A DNA stretch of 21,203 bases, from NCBI GenBank assembly GCA_023132135.1, contig JAGLYR010000056.1, forward strand, positions 1 through 21,203. Reading direction: 5' to 3'. The DNA is from Candidatus Eiseniibacteriota bacterium. GTDB lineage: Bacteria > Arandabacterota > Arandabacteria > JAGLYR01. Below the pieces are notes generated by a model. The model searched no databases. It saw only the letters and a program-made list of their open reading frames with translations, and was not told where the DNA came from. The position numbers and the translations under genes are program-made. Every line of letters starts with the position of its first letter. Within the stretch, counting starts at the first letter, position 1. Below, in pieces: positions 1 through 21,203 of this stretch.

Positions 1-525
1 ACAAACAACTCCGGCGTTGACACCGGGGTTCGAGTAGGTTCGGCACTCGATGACAAGGGCATCCCGCGTCCCGCCGGCAGAATCGAAAGTCCACGACCAG
101 CACGCCTTATCCCAACCTGTTCCCGGACCGTAGTCGCTGTCTCCCCCGGCGCTGCCTTGGTAATTATCGATGTCGTCGCTCGTGGTGTAGTGGGCCCAGA
201 TGCGGCACGACGGAGCAACCCCCGGAGTGATGTCATAGCGCCAGAAACAAGCCTCGACGACGGCTCCGTCGGTCAAGCCCGTGACCCAAGCGATGTATGC
301 CTGTGGAGTCCCGCTGGGAGAGTTGTCCTCCAGCTTCAGGGAACGCCACCCACAAAAGACCGGGTCCGGCTGGCCGACGTTCGTCGCGACGATAGGCGGC
401 TCGCCCGAACCGTACATTCCGAGCACCGTCCCGCCATCCTCCCAGCCACAGTACGCAGTCTGTTGACCCTCTGCAACCGATGCAACAAGGCAGGCGGCTA
501 GAGAAATCAAGAGTACCCTTTTCAT
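1..525 (-). CDS. Secreted protein of unknown function, C-terminus off the window
   Basis: An open frame runs from an ATG at 525 leftwards to the window edge, giving 175 residues with no stop. The first 20 or so residues (MKRVLLISLAACLVASVAEG) form a classic signal peptide, so the protein is exported. A good Shine-Dalgarno sequence (GAGGTGAG, about 532-539) precedes the ATG. The mature part starts with YCGWEDGG and contains paired cysteines and many aromatic residues. It looks like a beta-sandwich wrapping domain of the LamG/choice-of-anchor sort, but I recognise no named family. It is the last of six minus-strand genes for exported proteins. The C-terminus lies outside the window, so the sorting signal it uses cannot be read. 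Coding is supported by the signal peptide, the ribosome binding site and the uninterrupted frame. Confidence 0.82.
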   Translation of the reverse strand, partial: MKRVLLISLAACLVASVAEGQQTAYCGWEDGGTVLGMYGSGEPPIVATNVGQPDPVFCGWRSLKLEDNSPSGTPQAYIAWVTGLTDGAVVEACFWRYDITPGVAPSCRIWAHYTTSDDIDNYQGSAGGDSDYGPGTGWDKACWSWTFDSAGGTRDALVIECRTYSNPGVNAGVVC

Positions 526-703: not shown

Positions 704-1408
704 CTAGCGGTATGTCGACTTGATAGATCCCCAGGTTGCGTTCTTTGCGCGGGTGGGTCCTTCCTCATCGGAGATTCGAAGCACAACGCACTCCACCCTT
801 CCGTACTCACCTCTTAGCGTCGGGTTCGGACTGCAGACGCCGCCGGGGCTTTCCAGAAGGACCGGGTAGTCGGGCACCTGTCCGTCGCTCACGCCGACGT
901 TCATCGCGTCCCACTCCGCGCACAGGCGCACGTCGAACTCATCGAAGTCCCCGGCACACTCCACTCCCTGGGTCTCGATTCGAAAGGGAAGCCCGTGCCA
1001 AAAATGCACCGCCCTCCGCTCGGTGTAGTAGTCGAGAATCCCAGTATACTCGGTCTCTTCATTCCCCCACGGTCCTGCACCGGACAGCCAGAATGTACCG
1101 CCGGAATACCTCAGGAGGTAGGACGCGTACCCGTTGCCGTCCTCATCAAACCAGGAACCGATCCACTCGGGCTCGCCCTCCAGCGCGGGGCAGGCGAACT
1201 CCCACAAGAGGCCGAGGGCGCTTGCGCCTTCGTCCCAGGACTCGGCGTGATATGTGTTGCCGAGGCTCAGCCAGACGTCTCCGACATAGGACACAGTGTA
1301 ACGCCCCTCCAAGTTGTCGAAATACTCCCCGTACAGCGGCGGCCCGGCGAGGACCGTGCAGGCGGGGAACACCAGCACCATGGCAACCAAAGCAGAAACC
1401 GCTTTCAT
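704..1408 (-). CDS. Exported cysteine-containing protein with WG-x-x-K C-terminal tail
   Basis: A 234-residue protein. The frame stays open further upstream, but I place the start at the ATG at 1408. It is preceded by a strong ribosome binding site (GGAGGAGGTG, about 1413-1422) and begins a clean signal peptide, MKAVSALVAMVLVFPACTVLAG. The mature protein is acidic and rich in Tyr, Trp and Gly (for example the GEYFDNLEGRYTVSYVGD region near its start), suggesting a beta-rich secreted fold. I recognise no family. The last 11 residues, ATWGSIKSTYR, match the tails of three other exported proteins in this window, at 4856-4891, 6527-6559 and 9239-9271. No promoter is evident in the 145-bp gap upstream, so read-through from the gene ending at 1554 is possible. 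Confidence 0.82.
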   Translation of the reverse strand: MKAVSALVAMVLVFPACTVLAGPPLYGEYFDNLEGRYTVSYVGDVWLSLGNTYHAESWDEGASALGLLWEFACPALEGEPEWIGSWFDEDGNGYASYLLRYSGGTFWLSGAGPWGNEETEYTGILDYYTERRAVHFWHGLPFRIETQGVECAGDFDEFDVRLCAEWDAMNVGVSDGQVPDYPVLLESPGGVCSPNPTLRGEYGRVECVVLRISDEEGPTRAKNATWGSIKSTYR

Positions 1409-1553
1409 CACGACACCTCCTCCGTGCACCGGACTCCCCGTTCGAGGGATGCGCATCTCACCCCTCCGGGCCCCGGGACAATGCATGTACGATGTTTCCA
1501 ATCTCGCCGTGACCTCCGATTGTGTCCCCCGAGATGTAACAGAATTCGCCTGC

Positions 1554-4500
1554 CTATCTCACCACAACAAGCCTCCGGGTTTCGGTGTACGGACCCGCCT
1601 CCATTCGACAAAAGTAGATCCCTGGTGCCACGCGCTGTCCTGCTGCCTGGCAGCCATCCCATATGACTTCGTGACAACCCGGGATGTATTCCCTCTCGAC
1701 CAGCGGACGTACCACTTGTCCGGACACGTTGTAGATAACAAGTTCCACCGGGACGCTGGGCGACGCGGACTGCGGGATGCCGAAGGAAATGGTCGTCGAC
1801 GGATTCAGAGGATTGGGTTGGCCCGGGTACAGGGCATACGCGGTGGGTAACTGCGTTTCTCGTTCCGGGACTGAGGTTGCTCCTTGCGTTGCCACGGATC
1901 CGCCGAACACAGATGCAGGCGTTGTCGGCCAGCCGTACGTATCCGTCACCCTGACATCGACAAGGTCTAGCGGAGATGTCTGATCCCAGGAAACCATTCT
2001 GAGAATCACGCGTGCCAAAGTTCCGGGACCCGCGGGTCCCACCGGTTCCCCCGTCGTGTACGCTCCGAATGAGACCCGACCCGCTTCGTTGTCAATCCGG
2101 GGTCCTAGGGTGTAGACGCTTCTGCCAGTCGTTCCCAGGACAGCGCCGGGCACGAAATCCTGCACGTGCACGACGGAGGGATCAAAGGAGAGAGTTGCCT
2201 CAAAGGCGCCCAGATCCAGCGCGTCTTCGACGATGAGAGAAAAGGATGCAGTGTCGCCGATATCCCCCACAAAGGCGAGCGCTCGAGGTTCAATCTTCAC
2301 GGTGGGAGACCAGGGCTCAGGCTCAGGTGGGGGGAAGTCGGCGGTCGGGCAACCCTGTCCCCATCTCGCTGCCACCTGCTGCACGTCCACAACGTCGATG
2401 CAGCCATCTTCGAGCGAAGAACAATAGATCCCGGGTTCCACCAAATTGACATCGAAGGTGTCCGAGTAACAGGCGTCACCGACGCAGCAGCCCCATCTGC
2501 CGGATACCTGCATGATGTCCTGGACCGTCACGTCGCCGTCGTCATTGAAGTCTCCGTAGCAGAAGGCCCGATGCGCGATGGTTGCGCCGCTGACATTGTT
2601 TACGTCGATGAGTCCCGGTGGGACCTGCGTATCGACAAGCTCCCAGTTCTCCAGGCAGACGAAATCCTCGGCAGCTCCATCGCCCAGCCGTGAGAAGTAG
2701 ATCCGGGCCAGCTTGCCGGAGCCCGTCGGTCCTGGTTCCGGACCTGCCGAGTAGGCTCCGTAGCGGGTACCTACCACGTGGCAGGACGGATCACACGGGA
2801 TTGGCTCCAGCGGGTAGATCGTGCGGCCAGTAGATCCGGGAAGGCTGTCTACGAATGCGCCCTCGAACTGCACCAGGGAGTTGTCATATCCCGTGCAGAT
2901 CTCGAACGCGCCTAGGTCGAAGACGTCCTGTACCCACAGGCCAAAGCAATAGCAACGACCGCAGGGGTAGTAGGTGGTGATGTTAGCGGGAGACAGGAAT
3001 AGCTCTGCTCCACATCCGACGGGGAGTGCACCGATCAGGTCGCACTCCGGGTTGGGCTCGCTGAATGGAGCACACGGGGAACCCGGCTGCAGACGGTAGT
3101 CGTCGTTTTCGGGGTCGCAGAAAAGCGGGTCCTCGGAAATGTTGCCGTTGATGCCGTACTGATCCGCGAAGCACCCAACCCAGTCGCCCCCCTCGTTGCC
3201 GTAGACGTCACAGCAAGTGAGAGTGGCATTGCTCGTACCGTCGCAGTAGGCAACGCTCGCGGACCTGGTGAAAGCGATGATTGTGTTCTGTAGTGTGGGC
3301 GAGGATCCTATTCTGCAGTACATCGCGCCGCCTGGATCGGGGGGATCGGTGGTGCAGCACAGGGCGAAGGTGCAATTGGTTAACGTAGGGGAGGAATTGC
3401 TGAGGTACATCCCGCCGCCAGATCCCGTGCACGCGGTATTTCTCGAGAACACGCAGTTGGTGAGTCTGGGAGAGGAGTTTTGCTGGCACCACATCGCGCC
3501 GCCGTGACGCGTGGCCTCGTTCATAGAGAAGACGCAGTTCCTGAGAATTGGGCAGGAGCTGCTACGACAGAACATGCCGCCGCCCAGGGCGTCTTGCCCG
3601 TAAGCCTCGTTGAGCCGCAGAGTGCAATTGGTGAGCCTAGGTGAGGACTCGGAGCAGTACATCCCGGCACCCCCGCCGTGGGAAGGCAAAGATACGTAGC
3701 CACGGGTTAGCGTAAACCCTTCGATGATCGCTGTGCTGTCCACGTTCCCGCAGTAGATAACCCTCCCTTCGTCTTGAGCATCGATCGTGACGCAGTCCGC
3801 TTCGCCCGTTTCGCTGCTTAGGCAGATCCCTGACTTCATGATCACGCAGGTGAGGAAACTGTCGGGGGTCATGTGGGTGCAATCGTAGTACGTCCCGCAG
3901 GCCACGAGAACGCTGTCGCCACACAGCGCAGAGTCTATCCCGGCCTGGATGGTGGGTGCATCGGCGGGAACGTGCCAGACGCGCATACAGTCACCGAGTC
4001 CAAGGGCGCCAATCAACCCACAGTCGGGAGCATCCAGGCAGGGTGAGCATGGGCGCAAGTGATAATCCTCGTTGTCCGGATCGCAGAACAACGGGTCTTC
4101 GAAGATGTTGCCCTCGAGGAATTCGAACGGTCCGCCCCCGGTAACAAGAACCGTGTTGTCCCAGCAGTCCGAGCACCGCACTTGGAACACGTTTACGTCG
4201 ACCGTGAAGAAACCATATTCGCAGTTGGTCACGATGCAGTTGTTCACGAAGATCTGGTTGGCACTGTCTCCACCTATGCCTTTCCCGCAGTCGCTGATCG
4301 TACAGTTCGAGATGTAGGCAGTTCCAACCCGGTCTTCATATTCGTCCAGGAAAATGCCCCACCCTGAGTTGAGTACTACGATGCCTGAGGCGTACCACGT
4401 CACGTCGGGGCTCCATCGCTGCACGATGCAGCAGGGCGCGTTCCTGAGGGTCAAGTTAGAAATACAAACGGCTTCCTTAACGTGGAAGATCCAGCCAGAG

Positions 4501-4754
4501 CCCCCACCATCAACGATCGCCCCGGTGCTCTCACCGCGGATGGACAAGGGCTTGTCGAGTACGATGTTGGTTTCTTGATAGTTCCCGTTGGAGATGAATA
4601 CCGAGTCTCCAGCGGCGCAGGAATCGACGGCCGCCGCAATGGTCGGAGCATCCCCGGAGCCGTCCGGTAGGACATGCCACGTGCGAGCAGTTGCAGGGCC
4701 AGTTGCAAGCAGCACAAGACCTAGAACGATGAGAGTGAAAGTTGTAGAACGCAT
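1554..4754 (-). CDS. Secreted double beta-helix protein with cohesin-like/dockerin-like region and FlgD-like C-terminal sorting domain
   Basis: A 1066-residue exported multidomain protein. The ATG at 4754 is chosen because it starts the signal peptide MRSTTFTLIVLGLVLLATGP; the frame is open for 22 more codons upstream without a signal. Domains, approximately: right-handed parallel beta-helix 1 (25-256); beta-helix 2 (257-582) with rungs such as SSPRLTNCTL and SSPTLTNCTF; a cohesin-like beta-sandwich (583-727); a dockerin-like pair of segments (732-800, including DFNDDGDVTVQD, an EF-hand-type Ca-binding loop); a second cohesin-like domain (816-958); and a FlgD Ig-like/type IX-like sorting domain (975-1066, LYPGQPNPLNPSTTISF through IWDG to GIYFCRM). 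Beta-helix proteins of this sort often bind or cleave polysaccharides, but no catalytic residues are evident. It lies 98 bp downstream of its beta-helix paralogue and is probably co-transcribed with it. Confidence 0.9.
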   Translation of the reverse strand: MRSTTFTLIVLGLVLLATGPATARTWHVLPDGSGDAPTIAAAVDSCAAGDSVFISNGNYQETNIVLDKPLSIRGESTGAIVDGGGSGWIFHVKEAVCISNLTLRNAPCCIVQRWSPDVTWYASGIVVLNSGWGIFLDEYEDRVGTAYISNCTISDCGKGIGGDSANQIFVNNCIVTNCEYGFFTVDVNVFQVRCSDCWDNTVLVTGGGPFEFLEGNIFEDPLFCDPDNEDYHLRPCSPCLDAPDCGLIGALGLGDCMRVWHVPADAPTIQAGIDSALCGDSVLVACGTYYDCTHMTPDSFLTCVIMKSGICLSSETGEADCVTIDAQDEGRVIYCGNVDSTAIIEGFTLTRGYVSLPSHGGGAGMYCSESSPRLTNCTLRLNEAYGQDALGGGMFCRSSSCPILRNCVFSMNEATRHGGAMWCQQNSSPRLTNCVFSRNTACTGSGGGMYLSNSSPTLTNCTFALCCTTDPPDPGGAMYCRIGSSPTLQNTIIAFTRSASVAYCDGTSNATLTCCDVYGNEGGDWVGCFADQYGINGNISEDPLFCDPENDDYRLQPGSPCAPFSEPNPECDLIGALPVGCGAELFLSPANITTYYPCGRCYCFGLWVQDVFDLGAFEICTGYDNSLVQFEGAFVDSLPGSTGRTIYPLEPIPCDPSCHVVGTRYGAYSAGPEPGPTGSGKLARIYFSRLGDGAAEDFVCLENWELVDTQVPPGLIDVNNVSGATIAHRAFCYGDFNDDGDVTVQDIMQVSGRWGCCVGDACYSDTFDVNLVEPGIYCSSLEDGCIDVVDVQQVAARWGQGCPTADFPPPEPEPWSPTVKIEPRALAFVGDIGDTASFSLIVEDALDLGAFEATLSFDPSVVHVQDFVPGAVLGTTGRSVYTLGPRIDNEAGRVSFGAYTTGEPVGPAGPGTLARVILRMVSWDQTSPLDLVDVRVTDTYGWPTTPASVFGGSVATQGATSVPERETQLPTAYALYPGQPNPLNPSTTISFGIPQSASPSVPVELVIYNVSGQVVRPLVEREYIPGCHEVIWDGCQAAGQRVAPGIYFCRMEAGPYTETRRLVVVR

Positions 4755-4828
4755 AGCACAACACCCCCTTCTGCACCTTCGCCAGCTCGGGAGCAGTCCG
4801 CTCTTTGAGTCGACGGCCAAACGCCTAT

Positions 4829-4846
4829 ACCCGGATCAGACCGGGT
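4829..4846. other. Small GC hairpin between the two beta-helix genes
   Basis: ACCCGG, a 6-nt loop and CCGGGT form a 6-bp perfect stem just past the stop at 4853 on the minus strand. No T-tract follows in either direction, so it is not a convincing terminator. It could be an mRNA-stabilising or processing hairpin, or chance. Confidence 0.25.
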
Positions 4847-4852
4847 CTCCTG

Positions 4853-5878
4853 CTATTCGCGAAACATATTCTTGACCTGACCCCAGCTGACTCTCTCCAC
4901 CGGCGTCGGCTCACCACACGGACACCCGACCCCGTAGGCACCGATCAGTCCGCATTCGGGGTTGTACTCGGGTATGCAGGGAGAGCACTCTTGCAGATGG
5001 AAGTCACCGTTGTACGGATCGCACAGCCTCGGACACTCCGAGAAGTTACCGTTGATTCCGTACTGATCCTCGATATGTCCCGCCCAGTCCGCCCACTGGT
5101 TGCCCCAGAGGTCGCAGCATGTGAGGGTGGGGTTGCCCCCCCAATCGCAGTAGATGACTCCTGAATTCGAGGAGCTGTTGTTTGAGAGGATGCAGTTGGT
5201 GAGTGTCGGAGACGAGTAGAGGCAGTATATTCCTCCGCCGCCATAGTCGGTGCCGTTGCTGTATATTACGCAGCTGACGAACGTCGGAGAAGACCCCCCA
5301 ATGCACGCAATGGCGCCGCCCCTGCTGTTCTCGTACCACTCGCCAAACGCGCTATTCTCAAAGAAAATACAGTTAACAAAGGCGGGCGAGGAGCCGAAGC
5401 AGCACAGTCCTCCTCCGCAGGCGGCGTGCTCGTGCCAGCCATGTGCGACGTTGTCCCGAAAGGTGCAGTTGGTGATCGTGGGAGAAGAGCCCCAGCAGTA
5501 CATACCGCCGCCGCGCGCCGGGAAGCATCCGACACATCCTGCAAGCCCGTGGGTGATGGTGAATCCGTCAATGCTCGTGGTGTTGTCCACATCGCTGCAG
5601 AAGAGCACTGTTCCGTCGCACTCAGCATCAATCGTGACGCAGTCAGGATTACCAGTTTCACTTCGAAGTGTGATCCCAGATTTCATCCAGATCTCATGCT
5701 CGTAGAATGTCCCACACGCGACGAGCACAATGTCGCCTGCACTGGCGGAATCAATCCCCGCATGGATCGTGGGTGCATCGCCTGTACCGTCGGGGAGGAT
5801 GTACCAGGTTCGAGCGGAAGCAGGGAGTGATGAGAACGGCACGATGATGGCCAGTGCTGTGAGGAGTAGCTTCTGCAT
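4853..5878 (-). CDS. Secreted right-handed beta-helix protein with WG-x-x-K C-terminal tail
   Basis: A 341-residue exported protein. The start at 5878 is fixed by an ideal ribosome binding site (AGGAGG at 5885-5890, 6-nt spacing) and the signal peptide MQKLLLTALAIIVPFSSLPA. Residues about 24-310 form a right-handed parallel beta-helix with rungs carrying the repeating pattern SSPTxxNCxF and GGGxYC. Roughly 26 cysteines occur in the mature chain. It is a clear paralogue of the second beta-helix in the gene at 1554-4754: both share an ARTW-(Y/H)-(I/V)-LPDG start and a DQYGINGN motif, and each ends with an ECxLIGA motif. It lacks the cohesin-like, dockerin-like and FlgD-like domains and instead ends in VSWGQVKNMFRE. 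A strong promoter lies 81-110 bp upstream of the start. Substrate and function are unknown. Confidence 0.9.
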   Translation of the reverse strand: MQKLLLTALAIIVPFSSLPASARTWYILPDGTGDAPTIHAGIDSASAGDIVLVACGTFYEHEIWMKSGITLRSETGNPDCVTIDAECDGTVLFCSDVDNTTSIDGFTITHGLAGCVGCFPARGGGMYCWGSSPTITNCTFRDNVAHGWHEHAACGGGLCCFGSSPAFVNCIFFENSAFGEWYENSRGGAIACIGGSSPTFVSCVIYSNGTDYGGGGIYCLYSSPTLTNCILSNNSSSNSGVIYCDWGGNPTLTCCDLWGNQWADWAGHIEDQYGINGNFSECPRLCDPYNGDFHLQECSPCIPEYNPECGLIGAYGVGCPCGEPTPVERVSWGQVKNMFRE

Positions 5879-5884
5879 GACACA

Positions 5885-5890
5885 CCTCCT
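5885..5890 (-). promoter_or_regulatory. Ribosome binding site AGGAGG
   Basis: AGGAGG on the minus strand, 6 nt before the ATG at 5878. It decides the start of the beta-helix gene over the upstream in-frame ATGs. Confidence 0.8.
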
Positions 5891-5958
5891 TTGAGAGGTC
5901 ATGGGTGGGGTGCTGTGCAATAGCGGAGAGTGTTGGGCGGGCTGCGAGGACGGCACAG

Positions 5959-5988
5959 AGTATATCATCGGTAAATGACAACTGTCAA
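5959..5988 (-). promoter_or_regulatory. Sigma70-type promoter for the beta-helix gene at 4853-5878
   Basis: On the minus strand, -35 TTGACA (5983-5988), an 18-bp spacer and -10 TATACT (5959-5964), with TG one base before the -10 (extended -10). The predicted transcript starts near 5952, leaving a leader of about 75 nt. The same architecture recurs at 9969-9998. Confidence 0.72.
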
Positions 5989-6302
5989 GAAAGAAAGAGC
6001 TATAGTAACCAATCGAGACAGCCTACATGATCTATTGTAACGAACGATATCCTTCATAGCATGAATTGGGCTATGGTGAAGACTGGGAAAGGCACAGGGG
6101 TCTTGCTGTTACCGGTGTGAATACATGCAGATGGGATGGCTGGTAGCGGCACCACCGGTCCATGTCTGATCGACAGGGGGGATTCTCTTCGATGCGGGCC
6201 CCGAGCCTGGCCGGCTCATCTGCCTGGGCCAAGGTCCGATTGAGCCGCGCCCGTGAACCACGAATGTCGTAACTCCAATTTCCACAAGTCGTTCTAGAAT
6301 TG

Positions 6303-6316
6303 AGTAGTCTGTCCCG
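6303..6316 (-). repeat. Dispersed motif CGGGACAGACYACT, copy 1
   Basis: On the minus strand this reads CGGGACAGACTACT. The same 14-mer (Y = C or T) occurs on the plus strand at 8632-8645 and 10056-10069. Every copy is intergenic, and every copy lies next to other repeats or gene fragments. Confidence 0.6.
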
Positions 6317-6352
6317 CATTTGCCGTCCCGCATTTGCCGTCCCGCATTTGCC
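6311..6352. repeat. Three perfect tandem copies of a 14-bp unit
   Basis: The unit GTCCCGCATTTGCC occurs three times in direct tandem (6311-6324, 6325-6338, 6339-6352). The first copy overlaps the GGGACAGAC motif (GTCTGTCCC on the plus strand), so the array seems to have grown from the end of that motif. Confidence 0.9.
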
Positions 6353-6448
6353 CCTTGGACATCTTCCAGCCTACTCAGGGCGAACGGACGGGTGGGATCC
6401 TCTCGGGACAGGCTTCGCGGCACTCAGTGTAAGCGGATTGAGGGCAAC

Positions 6449-6490
6449 CGGTGACAGACTGCGTGTTTCCCACACCGCAGTCTGTCACCG
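6449..6490. repeat. Perfect 15-bp inverted repeat, REP-like hairpin
   Basis: Left arm CGGTGACAGACTGCG (6449-6463), 12-nt loop, right arm CGCAGTCTGTCACCG (6476-6490). It lies 34 bp beyond the stop of the PPC-domain gene (minus strand). No T-run follows on either strand, so a rho-independent terminator is unlikely. The core GACAGACT resembles the GGGACAGACYACT motif found elsewhere in the window. Confidence 0.75.
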
Positions 6491-6523
6491 AGTTTGTCCA
6501 CCGTCTTCTCATTCTCGTTTCTG

Positions 6524-8011
6524 CTACTTGAAGAGCGACTTGACAGAGCCCCAAGTCTCGTTCCTGAGTCCCGAAGGCACCTCGTAGCAGGGAAATCCTG
6601 CGCAAGGACAGGGGTTGCACCCTTGCCCCCCACCCACAGCCACGTAGCCCGCCCGCCCGTTGCCGATCTCGCATGGGAGAAGAACGGTAGATCCGCCGTG
6701 GCAATCGGCGACTTCTGCTCTGCCGATGCCGGCATGTTCAATCACTCTCACTTCCCCCAGGGACGTCGGCATGAGAGCAAGCACCCCGATCGGGACCGGT
6801 CCGTAGTTCGGTGGAACCACCATACAAGAGTCCCAGGATTGCTCCACGAAGTCACCGGGATCCTGAATTGTTCCGATCGTCTGGGGAGCACAAGAAATCC
6901 AGCTCACAAACGTCCAATTCGCCGGCCACGTAAGGCCATACGACGCGGCCGTGAACCCATTCACCTCCGGTATCAGCTGATACGCATGGCCGCACATACA
7001 GACATAGAAGTAGAGGACATCCTGTAGCGGTCCCCATTCCGTAACGAGAGCTGGACAGCCCGGCCAATACGCATCACAGGGCACATTGGGTAAGGTATTC
7101 TGAACATGGAGAGCGATGGCAGCGTTCGGAATCGCGGCTTTGTTGATGATCATCCAGAACGGGCCTCCGTTGCCACTGCCGCACGCATCACAGATAATGT
7201 AGTAGGTTCCGCCTCCCGCACTGGAGAATACCACCACTTCATCAGCGCCTGTGCAGCAGTTGTCGCTCCCGACAATGCACGTGCCCGCGACGTCGTCGCA
7301 GTCGGTCACCACATACAGGGAGGCATCGAAACCTTGCGGGGCCATCTTGATCGCGAGCTTCTCGCCGGCCGCGACGTCGATCACGTAGGTGACATCCTTG
7401 CCCGCTGCAGCGTAGCCGGTGCAGCCGGCGGAGCCTGGATCATAGTTGTTGGTGGCATTGGTGAGATCCCCGCTGATCTCGTCGCCGTAGAAAACCTCGA
7501 TCGCGCCATCGCAAGTGTCGTTCTCGGGCGCCGCACCAGGGCACGTACACTCCTCGCAGGTTATCGTGAGGGTGTACGAGCACTCGGCGCCAAAGTAGCC
7601 ATCGACCACAATGTAGTAAGTGCCGGGTTCCAGGCACGGTGTGGTCGCCGAAGTGTTGCCGAAGGTGATGCAGTCGGCCTCTTCGCAGCTTCCGAGGATA
7701 AACACATCGAGATCGCAGATCATGTCGGAGAGCGCAGCGGTGACGATGTAGCACTCCGGTCCCGGGATGACCAACTCATACACGACTTCCCCGCCACTCT
7801 CCGTCCAGCTTACACACCCGTAGGTCTCCACGTTGTTCGCCGCGCCGGTGTTATCACCCGTGACCACGTCGTCGCAGTAGATCGGGATCGCATCCGAGCA
7901 ATCCAGTAGACCTCGGGTCACATACGTCGGCTTCTCGAACGGCTTCTCGGCAAACACCGCCGACGAGACGAATATCAGAGAAACCGCCAGGCAAACAGAA
8001 ACTAGTCTCAC
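6524..8011 (-). CDS. Secreted protein with two PPC-like domains and WG-x-x-K C-terminal tail
   Basis: A 495-residue exported protein. I place the start at the GTG at 8011: it has AAGGAGGT 8 nt upstream and begins the signal peptide RLVSVCLAVSLIFVSSAVFA. The upstream in-frame ATGs give no signal sequence. Residues about 38-155 and 162-290 are two bacterial pre-peptidase C-terminal (PPC)-like beta-sandwiches. Typical phrases are PCLEPGTYYIVVDGY in the first and GGGTYYIICDACGS in the second, each starting with a D-C-x-x-A-I motif. Residues about 291-480 form a cysteine-rich domain I do not recognise. The C-terminus, ETWGSVKSLFK, is the shared tail. No protease domain is present, so the protein is probably a surface or extracellular binding protein. 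Transcription probably starts near 8300. Confidence 0.88.
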   Translation of the reverse strand: MRLVSVCLAVSLIFVSSAVFAEKPFEKPTYVTRGLLDCSDAIPIYCDDVVTGDNTGAANNVETYGCVSWTESGGEVVYELVIPGPECYIVTAALSDMICDLDVFILGSCEEADCITFGNTSATTPCLEPGTYYIVVDGYFGAECSYTLTITCEECTCPGAAPENDTCDGAIEVFYGDEISGDLTNATNNYDPGSAGCTGYAAAGKDVTYVIDVAAGEKLAIKMAPQGFDASLYVVTDCDDVAGTCIVGSDNCCTGADEVVVFSSAGGGTYYIICDACGSGNGGPFWMIINKAAIPNAAIALHVQNTLPNVPCDAYWPGCPALVTEWGPLQDVLYFYVCMCGHAYQLIPEVNGFTAASYGLTWPANWTFVSWISCAPQTIGTIQDPGDFVEQSWDSCMVVPPNYGPVPIGVLALMPTSLGEVRVIEHAGIGRAEVADCHGGSTVLLPCEIGNGRAGYVAVGGGQGCNPCPCAGFPCYEVPSGLRNETWGSVKSLFK

Positions 8012-8018
8012 CTTCCCC

Positions 8019-8026
8019 ACCTCCTT
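8019..8026 (-). promoter_or_regulatory. Ribosome binding site that fixes a GTG start
   Basis: AAGGAGGT on the minus strand; its AGGAGG core ends 8 nt before the GTG at 8009-8011. The signal peptide begins exactly at this GTG, whereas the nearest in-frame ATGs lie more than 90 bp upstream and have no such site. Confidence 0.75.
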
Positions 8027-8035
8027 GTCTGGCCT

Positions 8036-8507
8036 ACCGAGCCCCGCCGGAGCGGGAGCCCGCGCCCAATACCAAGGGGACAAAGCACAGCTGAGCCCTC
8101 CCATCAACAGAGCAATCCCAGCGTCCACCTCCCTTCAACGATTCGGAGCGCTCTCGAACACAGAGCCTCCCGGGTACAGGCCACAGTTCACGTGCGAGAG
8201 CATGAGATCATCCTCCCAGGCGCTCCCCTCACGTATGCAAAGAGTACCGCCACCGGTGTGGTGGAGCTGAGGGTCGATTTATGTCTCGATTCAGAGTCTT
8301 GATTTAATTATACTAACATCTATTACCAATATCAAGAAAAGACTAACACATTAAACTATACATGTCAACACTTCAATTGATATACGTATCGATCATCTAT
8401 TATCGATGACACTCGTGGATACTCAGGTCTGCGACGCTTACCGGAATGCGGCGACAGAGTGCTTTCAGGGACGTCCCTACGATCTCAAATGCACTGTCCC
8501 CGTTTTC
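8036..8507. other. Long leader and intergenic region containing an AT-rich island
   Basis: No gene is supported here. From about 8280 to 8400 the sequence becomes strikingly AT-rich against a GC-rich background; it contains the probable promoter of the PPC-domain gene. From 8036 to 8280 the DNA would be the 5' leader of that gene. I see no recognisable riboswitch. Confidence 0.5.
8307..8335 (-). promoter_or_regulatory. Sigma70-type promoter for the PPC-domain gene
   Basis: On the minus strand, -35 TTGATA (8330-8335), a 17-bp spacer and a perfect -10 TATAAT (8307-8312). It sits in an AT-rich island. The start would be near 8300, giving a long leader of about 290 nt before the GTG at 8011. A weaker alternative starts from TTGACA at 8363-8368. 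Confidence 0.6.
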
Positions 8508-8630
8508 CTACCTGGCCAGCGTCATCTTCTTGACCTCACTCCAGCCTGGGGCGTTCAGCCGGTAGAGGTAAACGCCGGAAGCGACGGCGTGGCCGTTCCT
8601 GTCCATACCGTCCCAGACAGCCTCGGTATT
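8508..8630 (-). pseudogene. Orphan C-terminal fragment of a FlgD-like sorting domain
   Basis: Reading the minus strand from about 8630 to the TAG at 8508 gives about 40 residues including VWDGMDRNGHAVASGVYLYR and ending KKMTLAR. This matches the end of the sorting domain in the gene at the right edge of the window (LWDGRDRNGTPVASGIYF ... RRMVLLR). The frame has no start, signal peptide or upstream domain: it hits a TAA about 50 bp upstream, and homology stops right at the GGGACAGAC motif at 8632. It is the tail of a lost secreted-protein gene. Confidence 0.82.
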
Positions 8631-8631
8631 C

Positions 8632-8645
8632 CGGGACAGACTACT
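8632..8645 (+). repeat. Dispersed motif CGGGACAGACYACT, copy 2
   Basis: CGGGACAGACTACT on the plus strand, extended by TTATTAGC. Copy 3 continues TTATTGGC, so the two plus-strand copies agree over about 21 bp. It lies at the junction between the sorting-domain relic and the C39-like relic. Confidence 0.65.
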
Positions 8646-8696
8646 TATTAGCATAACTACTTGTTTGGCTTTGGCTTAGGGCCACGCTTCTGTGGG

Positions 8697-8970
8697 AGAA
8701 GGGATATCCCAAGCATCGTCTCCACCCGGTGGGCACCAATGGGCGATTGTCCCGGAGACCCATGCGCTCCACCCCGCGGAGCATTTCATCCTTGTCGTGG
8801 GCTATAACCCTCAGACCGACGAGATGATCTACAACAGCCACAATCGGAGACAACGCCTCAAAGCATCCAAGCTGCTGGGCATCATCGACACCTTCTCCCT
8901 CGTCAACCGTCACGACTGGACCGGCGCGCTCTACGTTCCTCTTCCGGCGAAGGCTCCCGCGCGCCGCTGA
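8697..8970 (+). pseudogene. C39-peptidase-like C-terminal fragment, copy 1
   Basis: A frame ending at the TGA at 8968-8970 encodes about 90 residues including AEHFILVVGYNPQTDEMIYN and ending near WTGALYVPL. The H-F-I-L-V-V-G-Y-N stretch resembles the catalytic-His strand of papain-like C39 peptidases (Peptidase_C39_2). The N-terminal half that would carry the catalytic Cys is missing, and there is no proper ribosome binding site. A 271-bp segment (8697-8967) recurs at 10152-10422 with 11 mismatches and no gaps by my count. Seven of the 11 differences change an amino acid, which argues against purifying selection. Family assignment is tentative. Confidence 0.6.
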
Positions 8971-8989
8971 GGGTCCCTTGCGGAAGCCC

Positions 8990-9109
8990 TCACCCCCGGC
9001 CGGAGGCCGCTCGCGTCGCCGCATCCAATGACCTGCTTGCCCAGAGCCGGAGTGTCTCCTGGTCTTCCAGGACATCGACCGGCACCTCGTAGTACTGCAT
9101 CGCGTAGGA
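8990..9109 (-). pseudogene. Possible protein fragment of unknown origin
   Basis: The minus strand reads about 39 residues including YAMQYYEVPVDVLEDQETLR before a stop at 8990. The composition is protein-like, but no start, signal or neighbouring domain supports a complete gene. It may be another relic in this debris-filled gap, or a chance frame. Confidence 0.25.
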
Positions 9110-9163
9110 CCTATCGCCGTAGGACCTGAAGGGTCCGCTGCCGGCTGCTCGGAGGGGGGTAGT

Positions 9164-9202
9164 TTTTCGGGGTTTCGGGAACAAGTCCCGAAACCCCGAA
9201 AA
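9164..9202. repeat. Perfect 17-bp inverted repeat with 5-nt loop
   Basis: Left arm TTTTCGGGGTTTCGGGA (9164-9180), loop ACAAG, right arm TCCCGAAACCCCGAAAA (9186-9202). It lies 33 bp past the stop of the gene at 9236-9850. Neither exit has a T-tract, although the arms themselves begin with T and end with A, so it could act weakly on either strand. It may equally be a REP-like or mobile palindrome. Confidence 0.8.
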
Positions 9203-9211
9203 GAACCACCA

Positions 9212-9235
9212 TTCGTGCTCTTCGTGTGCTTCGTG
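9212..9235. repeat. TTCGTG short tandem repeat abutting a stop codon
   Basis: TTCGTG occurs at 9212, 9221 and 9230 with an exact 9-bp period. On the minus strand the array starts with the first base after the TAG (9236-9238) of the upstream gene and reads CACGAAG CACACGAAG AGCACGAA. Confidence 0.75.
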
Positions 9236-9850
9236 CTACCGGAACAGGATCTTCACGCCGCTCCAACTCCCCTCCTCGGTCTCCGTCGGACATGTGCACG
9301 AGGGAAGCACACCCGTCAGTTCGCCGAAGCCGACAAAATCTCCCGACTTGAGAACAAGCAAGGAATCAGGGTCCGTGATCGGAATGGGCGGCCAGTTCGA
9401 GAAGAAACAGAATGTCCCGGAACCCTGGTACATGGGGAAGCAGCCACAGAGCTCCAGAGGCTCGAACTTCACCAACGGCACATCCAGACCGGGAATGCTG
9501 GGATCCTGGCAGGTGAAGTAGGCCCAGTATTCCACCGTGCAGGGCTCGCCTTCGGCTTCCCCTGTTGAGGTACCCGCGACATCGAGCGCGGCGAAGGAGA
9601 AGAAATCGCACACGCAGGGACACTCCTCGAGCTGGAGAAGCACATCAAAATGACTGACGGTGCTGATCCCAGGAACGTCCCAGGTCAGAGTAATGCAGTA
9701 CTCCCAGTCCCACAGCTCGGGATAGCCTGACGGTTGAGCTTCACTGGTCCCCGAGAACACATATTGCCCCTGGGCCCCTGAGGGCAAGACCAGCATCGTC
9801 CAAGAAATGAGAAACAGAGAAACACTCCATCCAAAACGGTATCGATTCAT
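9236..9850 (-). CDS. Small exported protein of unknown family with WG-x-x-K-like C-terminal tail
   Basis: A 204-residue protein. The start at 9850 is chosen because it begins the hydrophobic signal MNRYRFGWSVSLFLISWTML, cleaved probably after ALPSGAQG-type residues, with a purine-rich GGAGGTGGAG about 8-12 nt upstream. The mature protein is a single acidic, cysteine-rich domain (ECPCVCDFF, EPLELCGCF, LPSCTC). I recognise no named family. It ends GSWSGVKILFR, a variant of the tail found on three other exported proteins of this island (S replaces G after W). A near-perfect promoter lies about 120 bp upstream. A 9-bp tandem repeat begins right after its stop codon, followed by a 17-bp inverted repeat. 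Confidence 0.85.
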   Translation of the reverse strand: MNRYRFGWSVSLFLISWTMLVLPSGAQGQYVFSGTSEAQPSGYPELWDWEYCITLTWDVPGISTVSHFDVLLQLEECPCVCDFFSFAALDVAGTSTGEAEGEPCTVEYWAYFTCQDPSIPGLDVPLVKFEPLELCGCFPMYQGSGTFCFFSNWPPIPITDPDSLLVLKSGDFVGFGELTGVLPSCTCPTETEEGSWSGVKILFR

Positions 9851-9968
9851 CTCTATGCTCCACCTCCCACCAGGGTACAGCTCCGCCTCATGCGGAGATG
9901 TTGTCCACATTTCACCGCGTCGCTGTCTCCATGATCTATCGCACAATCCTTCCTATCACACAGATAGT

Positions 9969-17773: not shown

Positions 17774-17794
17774 CGTTACTCGTTACTCGTTATC
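17774..17794. repeat. Heptamer tandem repeat overlapping a stop codon
   Basis: CGTTACT CGTTACT CGTTATC. On the minus strand it reads TAACGAG TAACGAG TAACG, and the first TAA is the stop codon of the giant gene (17790-17792). Confidence 0.75.
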
Positions 17795-20700
17795 TCAGCA
17801 GCACCATCCGTCTTGACGTCGTCTCCCCTCCTGTGCGCAGCCAGCAGAAGTAGATGCCCGAGGCGACGGGCGTGCCGTTCCGGTCGCGACCGTCCCACAA
17901 CACGTGGTAGACGCCCGGAACCTGGTCCCGGTCCACCAGCTGGCGAACGCGACGCCCGGTGACATCGTAGATGCTGAGCGTCACGGACGACCGGGCCGCA
18001 CCGGCCGGGATGGAGTAGGAAATCTGCGTTGAGACCGCGAACGGGTTCGGACTCACCGGGGCCAGCAGCAGACGGGTCGGCTTCTCCGGCGCGGGCGCCT
18101 CTTCCTCGATGCCCGTCAGCATCCAGCACGTCGTGCGCCGGACCGTGTGCGTCGTGGTTCCCGCCATGCCGTCGAGCTGGCTTCCGGGGCAGCCTTCGAA
18201 CTCGATCTGGTAGGTGATGTCAAAGAAGCTGTCCACCGCGAAATCGCCGCTGGGCAGCTGGGTCAACGTCGTCTGGCCCGGACCCGGGAGCCCGAAGTCG
18301 GCCCCTCCCAAAATCCTGAGAGTGCAGAAGTCCGGATCGCCAAAGAGCTCGCCCTGCAGACGGTACAGCTCCGCATCGAAAATCTGAACGGGATCGCCCA
18401 GGTTTCTCGGGGCAATGTGGATTTCTCCGGTGACCGGCACCCAGAGAGAGCGGGTGAACCCGGTCATGGCGCCGGTCCCGATCGCGTCCCACTGGAGCAT
18501 GGCGTCGAACGTGCAGACCTCGCCACCGAGCATACCTCCCGGCGTGTTATGCACGTTGCTGAAGTTCGTCAGCGGCCCGTGCATTTCGATGGTCGTGGCC
18601 GGAGGCAGACCGTCGATGATCATCATGGGCTCGTCCAGATTGTCGTACGGGCATTGGGCTGGGAAGTCGATCGTGCCCGTACCGTTGTCCGGCTCAATGC
18701 AGCAGACCTCGTACACGGTCATCTTCCCCGCGTTCTCGGTCTGGTACCCGTTCTCGCTGCCGTCCTCGCCCGGAACGCCGGTGTCCTTGTCGACATAGAG
18801 CCAGGTGGTCCCGCCGTCGCCCGAGAACCGATAGCAGTAGTCATAATCCCCGGCCGCAAGGGGCAGCGTCACGGTGGCCATGTACTCGTCGTTGTCGGGT
18901 TCGCCGGCTGCGATTCCATCCCAGGCCGGATTCGGGACAGCGTCCGTCCACGTCCAGGCTGCGGGTTGTTCGAACGGATCGCTCCCCGGGCCGAAGCCCG
19001 CCTGGCCGAGGACCAGGCCCGGCAAGGGATCCACACCGGGGGTCTGATCCGTGAGACCCGGCACGTAGACCCGGCCGTAGACTGTAACCTGCGTGCCCGG
19101 GTAATCCTCGATGGTGAGCGGCCACTGGAGGCGGCCCCAGTCGACGGTTCGGGGCTGGTGACACGTGAGCCTGAGGACGGTGTCGGTCGTGATTCCGGCA
19201 TATCCGTCGAGCTGGCTTCCGGGACAACCCTCGAACTCGATCTGGTAGGTGATGTCGAAGAAGCTGTCCACCGCGAAGTCGCCGCTGGGCAGCTGGGTCA
19301 ACGTCGCATGGCCCGGACCCGGGAGCCCGAAGTCGCTCCCTCCCAGAATCCTGAGAGTGCAGAAGTCCGGATCGCCGAAGAGCTCGCCCTGCAGACGGTA
19401 CAGGTCCGCATCGAAAATCTGAACGGGATCGCCCGGGTTCCTCGGGCCGATGTGGATTTCTCCGGTGACCGGCATCCAGAGGTGCCGGCTGAATCCCTGG
19501 AGATTGCCGGTCCCCGTGACGACCCACTCGATTTGGGCATCGAAGGTGCAGACCTCGCCACCGAGAATGCCTCCCGGCGTGTTATGCACGTTGATGAAGT
19601 TCGTCAGCGGCCCGTCGAGCTCAATCGTGTCTCCCGGGGGCAAACCGTCGATGATCATCATCGGGTCGTTGGGATGATCGAAGGGGCAGTCGGGCGGGAA
19701 GTCGATCGTGCCGGTGCCGTTGTCCGGCGCCAGGCAGCAGGTTTCCCAGATGGTCATCTTCCCGGCGTTCTCGGTCTGGTATCCGTTTTCGCTGCCGTCC
19801 TCACCGGGAACTCCCGTGTCCTTGTCCCCGTATACCCACACGAGTCCCCCGTCGCCGGAGAAGCGGAAACAGTAGTCGTAGTCGCCGGGCAGGTTGGGCA
19901 GCGTCACGGCGGCCATGTACTCGTCGTTGTCCGGCTCGCCCGCGGCGATAGCGTCCCAGCCCGGGTTGGGAATCGCATCGGTCCAGTGCCAGCCTGCAGG
20001 CTCCTCGAACGGATCGCTGCCCGGGCCAAAGCCCCACTGAGCGATCACCATACCCGGAACCGTATCGTTGCCCGGAGTCTGGTCCGTGAGCCCAGCGATG
20101 TAGACCCGCCCGTAGATCGTCACCTGCGAGCCCGGGTAGTCCTCGATGGTGTGCGGCCACTGGAGGCGGCACCAATCGACGCTGTAGGTCGTATCGTGGC
20201 ACGTGAGTTTCCGGACCGTGTCGGTCGTGATCCCGGCATACCCGTCGAGCTGGCTTCCGGGACAACCCTCGAACTCGATCTCGTAGGTGATGTCGAAGAA
20301 GCTGTCCACGGCGAAGTCGCCGCTGGGAAGCTCGGTCAGAATCGTCTGGCCCGGGCTCGGAAGTCCGAAGTCGGTTCCTCCCCGAATCCGGAGCGTGCAG
20401 AAGTCCGGATCGCCGAAGAGCTCGCCCTCGAGACGGATGAGATCCGCATCGAAGAGCTGAACGGGATCGCCCGGGTTCCTCGGGCCAATGTGAATTTCTC
20501 CGGTGACCGGCATCCAGAGTTGCCGGTTGAATCCGGTCAAATCGCCCGTTCCCGTGGCGGACCACTGGAGCGAGGCATCGAAGGTGCAGATCTCACCGCC
20601 CAGGATCCCGCCGGGAACGTTGACCACGTTGTAGAAATCCGCGAGCGGACCCCAGAGTTCAATCGTGGTTCCGGGAGGAAGACCGTCGATGATCTTCATC

Positions 20701-21203
20701 GGGTTTGTCGGGTGGTCGTAGGGACAGTCGGGCGGGAAATCAATGGTGCCGGTGCCGTTGTCGGGCGCCGAGCAGCAGACATCTTCATCCAGCACGGTCA
20801 TCTTGCCAGCGTTCTCGGTCTGGTAGCCGTTGTCGGTGTCGTCGATGTCGGCGTAGGTCCAGTCGTAGCCCTTGTTCCCCGAGAACCGATAGCAGTAGTC
20901 GTAGGTCCCGGGGGTGGACGGCACGACAAGATCCGCCATGTACTCATCGTTATAGGGTTCTCCCGCGGCGGCGCCGTCCCAGGCGGGATTGGGCACGGCG
21001 TTGATCCAGGTCCAGGACGGGTCGCTGGACGGATCCGATCCCGAAGGGCCATAGCCCACGTCGGCCAGGATGACACCCGGTATTGGGTCGTTGCCGGTCG
21101 TCTGCTCCGTCACACCTGAGATGGAGAGCCGCCCGTACACAGTGTAGATGGCTCCCGCGTAGTCGTCGATGGTATGCGGCCACTGGAGCCGCGCCCAGTC
21201 GAC
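17790..21203 (-). CDS. Giant modular secreted protein with FlgD-like C-terminal sorting domain, N-terminus off the window
   Basis: An open frame from the right edge to the TAA at 17790 gives the last 1137 residues; the start and signal peptide are not in view. Three tandem modules of about 341-345 residues fill the window. Each begins (V)DWxRLQWPxTIEDYPG, then has a beta-sandwich with GDYDYCYRFSGDGG and ENGYQTENAGKMT. A second domain follows, with PDNGTGTIDFPPDCP, GEIHIGPRNPGDPVQ, GELFGDPDFCTLRI and FAVDSFFDITYQIEFEGCPG. The last 93 residues (17790-18071) are a FlgD Ig-like/type IX-like sorting domain (LLLAPVSPNPF ... LWDGRDRNGTPVASGIYF). I do not recognise the second domain by name. Repeats are nearly identical in places at nucleotide level. 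The role is probably a surface or extracellular structural or binding protein. Confidence 0.93.
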   Translation of the reverse strand, partial: VDWARLQWPHTIDDYAGAIYTVYGRLSISGVTEQTTGNDPIPGVILADVGYGPSGSDPSSDPSWTWINAVPNPAWDGAAAGEPYNDEYMADLVVPSTPGTYDYCYRFSGNKGYDWTYADIDDTDNGYQTENAGKMTVLDEDVCCSAPDNGTGTIDFPPDCPYDHPTNPMKIIDGLPPGTTIELWGPLADFYNVVNVPGGILGGEICTFDASLQWSATGTGDLTGFNRQLWMPVTGEIHIGPRNPGDPVQLFDADLIRLEGELFGDPDFCTLRIRGGTDFGLPSPGQTILTELPSGDFAVDSFFDITYEIEFEGCPGSQLDGYAGITTDTVRKLTCHDTTYSVDWCRLQWPHTIEDYPGSQVTIYGRVYIAGLTDQTPGNDTVPGMVIAQWGFGPGSDPFEEPAGWHWTDAIPNPGWDAIAAGEPDNDEYMAAVTLPNLPGDYDYCFRFSGDGGLVWVYGDKDTGVPGEDGSENGYQTENAGKMTIWETCCLAPDNGTGTIDFPPDCPFDHPNDPMMIIDGLPPGDTIELDGPLTNFINVHNTPGGILGGEVCTFDAQIEWVVTGTGNLQGFSRHLWMPVTGEIHIGPRNPGDPVQIFDADLYRLQGELFGDPDFCTLRILGGSDFGLPGPGHATLTQLPSGDFAVDSFFDITYQIEFEGCPGSQLDGYAGITTDTVLRLTCHQPRTVDWGRLQWPLTIEDYPGTQVTVYGRVYVPGLTDQTPGVDPLPGLVLGQAGFGPGSDPFEQPAAWTWTDAVPNPAWDGIAAGEPDNDEYMATVTLPLAAGDYDYCYRFSGDGGTTWLYVDKDTGVPGEDGSENGYQTENAGKMTVYEVCCIEPDNGTGTIDFPAQCPYDNLDEPMMIIDGLPPATTIEMHGPLTNFSNVHNTPGGMLGGEVCTFDAMLQWDAIGTGAMTGFTRSLWVPVTGEIHIAPRNLGDPVQIFDAELYRLQGELFGDPDFCTLRILGGADFGLPGPGQTTLTQLPSGDFAVDSFFDITYQIEFEGCPGSQLDGMAGTTTHTVRRTTCWMLTGIEEEAPAPEKPTRLLLAPVSPNPFAVSTQISYSIPAGAARSSVTLSIYDVTGRRVRQLVDRDQVPGVYHVLWDGRDRNGTPVASGIYFCWLRTGGETTSRRMVLLR
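18126..19145 (-). repeat. Tandem protein module, unit 3 (last before the sorting domain)
   Basis: Starts VDWGRLQWPLTIEDYPG and ends near TTCW. It is about 340 residues, with the same two-domain layout as the units before it. Stretches near 18180-18290 and 19200-19310 are almost identical in sequence between units 2 and 3. Confidence 0.85.
19146..20180 (-). repeat. Tandem protein module, unit 2
   Basis: 345 residues, starting VDWCRLQWPHTIEDYPG. Contains both a GDYDYCFRFSGDGG segment and the PDNGTGTIDFPP domain. Confidence 0.85.
20181..21203 (-). repeat. Tandem protein module, unit 1 of those visible
   Basis: 341 residues, starting VDWARLQWPHTIDDYAG exactly at the window edge. It is more diverged than units 2 and 3 (it lacks their DTGVPGEDGS segment) and may be preceded by further units. 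Confidence 0.8.

Follow-up and report, generated by a model that had tools for sequence, protein, structure and literature searches.

Several bacterial sorting systems rely on a C-terminal tag shared by otherwise unrelated proteins. The type A C-terminal domain (CTD) of the type IX secretion system (T9SS; TIGR04183/PF18962) and the FlgD-like domain (PF13860) are tags of this kind on Sec-exported proteins and measure about 80 residues; T9SS CTDs are marked by a GxY motif (motif D) and a basic motif E, and the shortest described are three-stranded domains of 40-55 amino acids that retain GxY (PMC11969387), while the last 22 residues of HBP35 suffice to direct green fluorescent protein through the system (PMC4804311). 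Type B T9SS signals (TIGR04131), of about 100 residues, are an alternative served by dedicated PorP/SprF shuttles (PMC12618676), the shuttle gene usually lying adjacent. The PEP-CTERM/exosortase, GlyGly-CTERM/rhombosortase, MYXO-CTERM/myxosortase and LPXTG/sortase systems likewise use many-to-one C-terminal tags on unrelated signal-peptide proteins, each tag combining a motif, a transmembrane helix and a basic cluster. Here we describe a C-terminal tail of about ten residues, found on four exported proteins encoded in contig JAGLYR010000056.1 of a Candidatus Eiseniibacteriota bacterium (assembly GCA_023132135.1; positions 1 to 21,203, the whole analysed stretch, hereafter the window), and compare it with these systems.

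The tail is a real, widespread and apparently undescribed C-terminal tag, which replaces the FlgD-like sorting domain. The initial annotation of the window had read the four C-termini as ATWGSIKSTYR, VSWGQVKNMFRE, ETWGSVKSLFK and GSWSGVKILFR; they were recovered exactly so at the ends of four minus-strand open reading frames (ORFs), at 704, 4853, 6524 and 9236. The relevant features of the window are as follows.

704..736, minus strand: tail TWGSIKSTYR plus stop (ORF end, tail pattern match)
704..1501, minus strand: tail-bearing exported protein of unknown fold (no Pfam match; signal peptide MKAVSALVAMVLVFPACTVLA from an internal start)
4853..4888, minus strand: tail SWGQVKNMFRE plus stop, with a one-residue extension (ORF end)
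4853..5968, minus strand: signal-peptide protein with a beta-helix body and the tail (body similarity, AlphaFold model)
6524..6556, minus strand: tail TWGSVKSLFK plus stop (ORF end, tail pattern match)
6524..8128, minus strand: exported protein with tail and a weak PPC-like domain (score below the Pfam cut-off)
9236..9268, minus strand: tail SWSGVKILFR plus stop (ORF end, tail pattern match)
9236..9946, minus strand: tail-bearing exported protein, small and Cys-containing (no Pfam match)
1554..4820, minus strand: beta-helix protein with a FlgD-like C-terminal sorting domain in place of the tail (domain match)
1557..1853, minus strand: FlgD-like / T9SS type A-like C-terminal domain, preceded by the linker TSVPERETQLP (domain match)
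17793..18086, minus strand: FlgD-like C-terminal domain of the large repeat protein 17790-21203, without tail, for comparison (domain match)
1..525, minus strand: 5' part of a gene truncated by the contig end (body homologous to the tailed proteins L182:11874-13118 and L184:15290-15904)

The truncated product of 1..525 has two tailed homologues in this genome, so that the window probably once held a fifth tailed protein.

In order to estimate how often the tail occurs, the 3.4-Mb genome was searched with a stop-anchored DNA pattern, W-x-x-[IMV]-K-x-x-[FY]-[RKHQ], the same pattern reversed serving as control; 43 sites were matched, against 1 for the reversed pattern. Background statistics come from gene calls on 466 kb of contigs, most of which were picked for holding tails: the motif stands at the protein end in 44 of 324 complete called genes and 3-8 residues before the end in three further proteins, and outside the last ~20 residues it was absent from the 121,630 residues of these contigs. 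The tails conform to the consensus [ST]-W-[GS]-x-[IV]-K-x-[LM]-[FY]-[RK], with L or M at +6 in 36 of 44. The residue before the tryptophan is S or T, and the one after it G, S or T, in all 44 tails, and because neither position was part of the search pattern, their conservation is a built-in validation of the motif. Codons of the tail vary freely, and serine is drawn from both TCN and AGY codons, indicating that selection acts on the protein and ruling out a DNA- or RNA-level element. Chance origin is likewise ruled out by the 43 matches against 1, by the counts in related genomes given below and by the confinement of the motif to termini. The tail had been placed at the very C-terminus, which is where it lies in most carriers, but this is not strict, as extensions of 1-8 residues exist (FRE in the window; YRPWYRKR and FRQPAQD elsewhere). 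Two loci at contig ends of the same genome (L188:13141-15198 and L205:136-2199) share an identical 30-residue C-terminus in which the tail is extended by 6 residues, reflecting either recent duplication or assembly overlap. We also observed that 39 of 44 tailed genes stop with TAG, compared with 148 of 280 other genes (p 4.7e-6).

The bodies that carry the tail fall into 17 sequence clusters in this genome and 40 over all loci examined, which rules out a single, vertically inherited family. A signal-peptide-like start, as T9SS cargo possesses, was detected heuristically in 33 of 40 tailed proteins, and several of the other seven have a signal peptide at another start codon when the upstream sequence is read by eye. 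The enrichment on exported proteins proposed in the initial annotation was borne out: a signal peptide with no further transmembrane segment was found in 31 of 40 tailed proteins versus 89 of 269 other genes (Fisher p 1.3e-7), by a home-made heuristic applied to tail-selected contigs, which is weaker than SignalP on a full proteome but leaves the direction of the effect in no doubt.

A pattern search of related genomes returned 14-35 tails in each of the seven other genomes of the class, with 0-2 in controls; among 52 genomes outside the class only one, G032, held many (25). Further afield, 7 to 67 tails were counted in the sampled Krumholzibacteriota, Eisenbacteria and Gemmatimonadota genomes, a few others of this group having low counts, 13 in one Latescibacterota genome and up to 87 in one metagenome-assembled genome (MAG). 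One to a few tails occur in Ignavibacteria, Bacteroidetes (Hymenobacter, Adhaeribacter), KSB1, Neomarinimicrobiota, Delongbacteria, Cloacimonadota and Zixibacteria, and in these low-copy phyla the carrier is mostly a protein of ~130 residues composed of a signal peptide, an FN3-like domain and the tail. The tail is the best conserved part of this protein; W, G, I, K, F and R are invariant in 39 of 39 sequences, against a mean column identity of 31%. Among the many FN3 domains that its own FN3 domain resembles is the Ig-like domain of PPAD, a T9SS cargo of Porphyromonas gingivalis. Tail-rich genomes have related FN3 domains within larger proteins; the FN3-tail protein itself was not found in the window organism's genome, where FN3 matches sit in larger proteins and end short of the tail. 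This distribution bears on whether the tail might be a functionless remnant, spread by duplication of one family. Some carriers are indeed tandem paralogues, such as the four tailed genes on contig C161 to which the 704..1501 protein is paralogous, but the 17 body clusters, the divergence of codons around invariant residues and the fact that across phyla the tail is better preserved than any other part of a divergent protein make such an origin scarcely credible, and we regard it as refuted by the conservation pattern.

An indication of what the tail may do comes from its exchange with the FlgD-like domain. The two large neighbours in the window carry that domain, as had been noted (PF13860, E 1.4e-6 and 2.7e-8), whereas the four tailed proteins match neither TIGR04183 nor PF13860. 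The four tailed bodies, described at the outset as unrelated, are so among themselves (BLAST E > 0.4), but the body of the 4853 protein is a paralogue of the FlgD-tagged 1554-4820 protein, with 46% identity over 341 amino acids (E 1e-73). The same exchange of tail for FlgD-like domain was seen in other pairs of paralogues, for example one with a beta-helix body and 44.9% identity over 385 residues. The preceding linkers are also alike: P-[TS]-A-T-E or S-P-V-E before the tail and TSVPE, ITSVGE, IASVPE or TGVEE before the FlgD-like domain, an [ST]xVE-type linker being similar before both. The same kinds of body and like linkers indicate that the tail stands in for the domain at one and the same joint, and paralogues that carry one or the other give direct support to the earlier proposal that the two are alternatives.

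SprA, the translocon of the T9SS, was present in all eight genomes of the class and in G032 (9 of 9 tail-rich genomes) versus 2 of 16 tail-poor outgroups (Fisher p 2.7e-5, uncorrected for ancestry). Within Eisenbacteria, SprA was found in 43 of 47 genomes and the tail pattern matched in 45 of 47; within Bacteroidota, SprA was found in 11 of 11 tail-bearing genomes versus 29 of 38 others. Because the tail replaces a CTD of ~80 residues at the same joint and on the same kinds of body, its route would most likely be the T9SS. The 22-residue end of HBP35 sets a precedent for a short signal of this system. We therefore favour the reading that the tail is a short linear C-terminal sorting signal that substitutes for the T9SS CTD and probably acts along the T9SS route or close to it, a reading to which we assign a probability of about 0.5; the link to the T9SS is likely, not proven.

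Under this reading, carriers would be exported by Sec through their N-terminal signal peptide, and the tail would be held out on a flexible linker until a receptor in the envelope bound it, whereupon a short helix would form. The receptor-bound tail would then direct the carrier to its final place, presumably the cell surface, most likely by way of the T9SS or one of its PorV/PorP-like shuttles. Predicted structures are consistent with such an arrangement. AlphaFold models the FN3 body well, then a low-confidence linker, then the tail as a detached short helix; the 4853 protein is likewise modelled as a beta-helix followed by a disordered linker and a detached helix over the tail.

The helix raises the question of whether the tail could be a self-acting amphipathic anchor that attaches to a membrane or surface without a receptor. 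Its W, I, L/M and F/Y residues together with K and R would suit an interfacial helix, as does the AlphaFold prediction; against this, the tail also occurs on lipoproteins that are already anchored, membrane binding would not demand so strict a conservation as its invariant K and its near-invariant W-[GS] show, and its helical hydrophobic moment is ordinary when compared with permuted residue order. The moment was accordingly dropped, as not significant, as proof of an amphipathic helix, and we judge a receptor-free anchor to be improbable.

Several observations weigh against the favoured reading. The association of SprA with the tail within Bacteroidota is not significant (p 0.098), and most SprA-bearing Bacteroidota are without a tail. 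No SprA was found by profile in five tail-bearing MAGs, which have 2 (G070), 15 (G073), 52 (G106), 8 (G232) and 15 (G233) pattern matches; a second search of G070, G073 and G106, made with the SprA of the window organism, also found none. Incompleteness of the MAGs may or may not account for the absence in these five. The tail has none of the CTD motifs and is far below the length of the shortest T9SS CTDs described. Three tailed proteins at L133 and L162 (Eisenbacteria) have lipoprotein-like signal peptides and one at L205 is membrane-anchored, and such carriers would be odd for surface cargo. Confidence in the helix is low in both models (pLDDT, the predicted local distance difference test, about 70 and 34), as would be expected for a peptide that folds on binding. 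Finally, no constant neighbour gene was found across phyla, single-copy tail loci included, a result that fits a reader belonging to a general machine.

Some of these observations would be explained if the tail were recognised, for sorting or docking, by an envelope receptor that has nothing to do with the T9SS, such as a scaffold in the periplasm or the outer membrane, the carriers then remaining in the envelope instead of being secreted. The tail-bearing MAGs without detectable SprA, the lipoprotein and inner-membrane carriers and the lack of similarity to any CTD all point in that direction; the exchange of tail and FlgD-like CTD on the same body at a similar joint, and the presence of SprA in nearly all tail-rich genomes, point away from it. 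We consider a T9SS-unrelated receptor rather unlikely, though the likeliest of the alternatives, and continue to favour a signal on or near the T9SS route.

When set beside the known tags, the tail shares with the type A and FlgD-like CTDs its organisms, its bodies and the preceding linker, but differs in that it comprises about 10 residues instead of about 80 and is predicted to be helical, with no beta-strands and no GxY motif D, whereas T9SS CTDs are beta-sheet domains of 40-80+ residues with motifs D and E. In contrast to type B signals, it has no constant neighbour. The CTERM and LPXTG tags differ in their transmembrane helix and in that tag and sorting-enzyme genes lie side by side where the tag is single-copy; in a hydrophobicity scan of 108 tailed proteins no such helix was found to precede the tail, a hydrophobic 15-mer (mean Kyte-Doolittle value 1.8 or more) at residues -48 to -10 occurring in only 2, and the neighbours of single-copy tail genes differ between phyla. 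Nor does the tail resemble the C-terminal signal of outer-membrane beta-barrels, which is the final strand of the barrel and has an aromatic residue at its end, as AlphaFold models the bodies as FN3 and beta-helix folds and the tail as helical; the TonB receptor and the DUF6588 protein of the window are without it. No matching entry was found in Pfam, NCBIfam, PDB or the open-access literature searched, in agreement with the view that the tail has no named family. It is like a sorting tag in behaviour, but not a member of the T9SS CTD or CTERM families. The broader proposal of a targeting, anchoring or processing role, made from sequence, is best kept as a candidate function.

The tail could instead serve processing or turnover: an envelope protease, perhaps of the C25 (gingipain/PorU-type) family, would recognise the C-terminal peptide and cut it to mature, attach or degrade the protein. 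PorU is a C25-family sortase (PMC7468200). C25 peptidase genes are strikingly numerous in tail-rich genomes, with 27 in this genome and 13-30 in most others tested, and the invariant K and terminal R/K would be in keeping with cleavage. C25 numbers do not track the tail, however, as G032 has 25 tails and 4 C25 genes, G073 has 15 tails and 2, and G010 has 10 C25 genes and no tail; moreover, some C25 genes themselves encode FlgD-tagged cargo (for example L204:4562-8209). C25 peptidases were thus ruled out as the cognate enzyme, and a processing tag appears unlikely, if marginally less so than a receptor-free anchor.

Haft and Varghese advise looking beside the tag gene in genomes with a single copy (PMC3237569). 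At single-copy loci of many Ignavibacteria and relatives the neighbour is Maf, which usually follows a lipoprotein identified by eye as SpoIID-like, whereas Hymenobacter and Adhaeribacter have RdgB or other genes, Delongbacteria RuvB/QueA, and Zixibacteria Rex and an anti-sigma antagonist. A run of FN3-tail gene, a gene of ~410-430 residues that is often lipoprotein-like (SpoIID-like by eye) and Maf is conserved at L067, L069, L073, L095, L148, L176 and L177, in this mostly Ignavibacteria group only. At tail-rich loci no dedicated partner was found beside the expanded copies, and the only clearly recurrent neighbours form a large cluster of exported proteins, FlgD-tagged proteins included. One locus of the window organism's genome (L205:2437-4172, contig C301) stands apart: an extracytoplasmic function (ECF) sigma factor gene overlaps the gene of a membrane protein with a single transmembrane segment and the C-terminal tail GTEEKTWGEMKKQFKE. 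It may resemble PorA-PorXY-SigP of P. gingivalis, in which a C-terminally tagged protein acts on an ECF sigma pathway, although PorA differs in tag and architecture and L205 is a single example; by analogy with PorA and SigP, the anti-sigma-like tailed protein may sense the tail pathway.

We tentatively raise a wider possibility, that the tail is a ten-residue linear C-terminal code with its own receptor, defining a separate envelope sorting pathway across the FCB (Fibrobacteres-Chlorobi-Bacteroidetes) superphylum. Many phyla would then have a single, founding protein of this pathway, and Eisenbacteria-like lineages would have expanded it to dozens of clients (up to 87). If the favoured reading is true, the tail would be a C-terminal tag that differs from the sorting tags known so far in lacking a transmembrane helix and in being shorter than every described T9SS signal that we found. 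In poorly known phyla dozens of exported proteins per genome bear it (14-87 in most of the tail-rich genomes seen), as does one conserved protein in cultivable Hymenobacter and Melioribacter relatives, in which it can be tested. The tail would help in annotating hundreds of proteins whose function is unknown and make its reader experimentally accessible.

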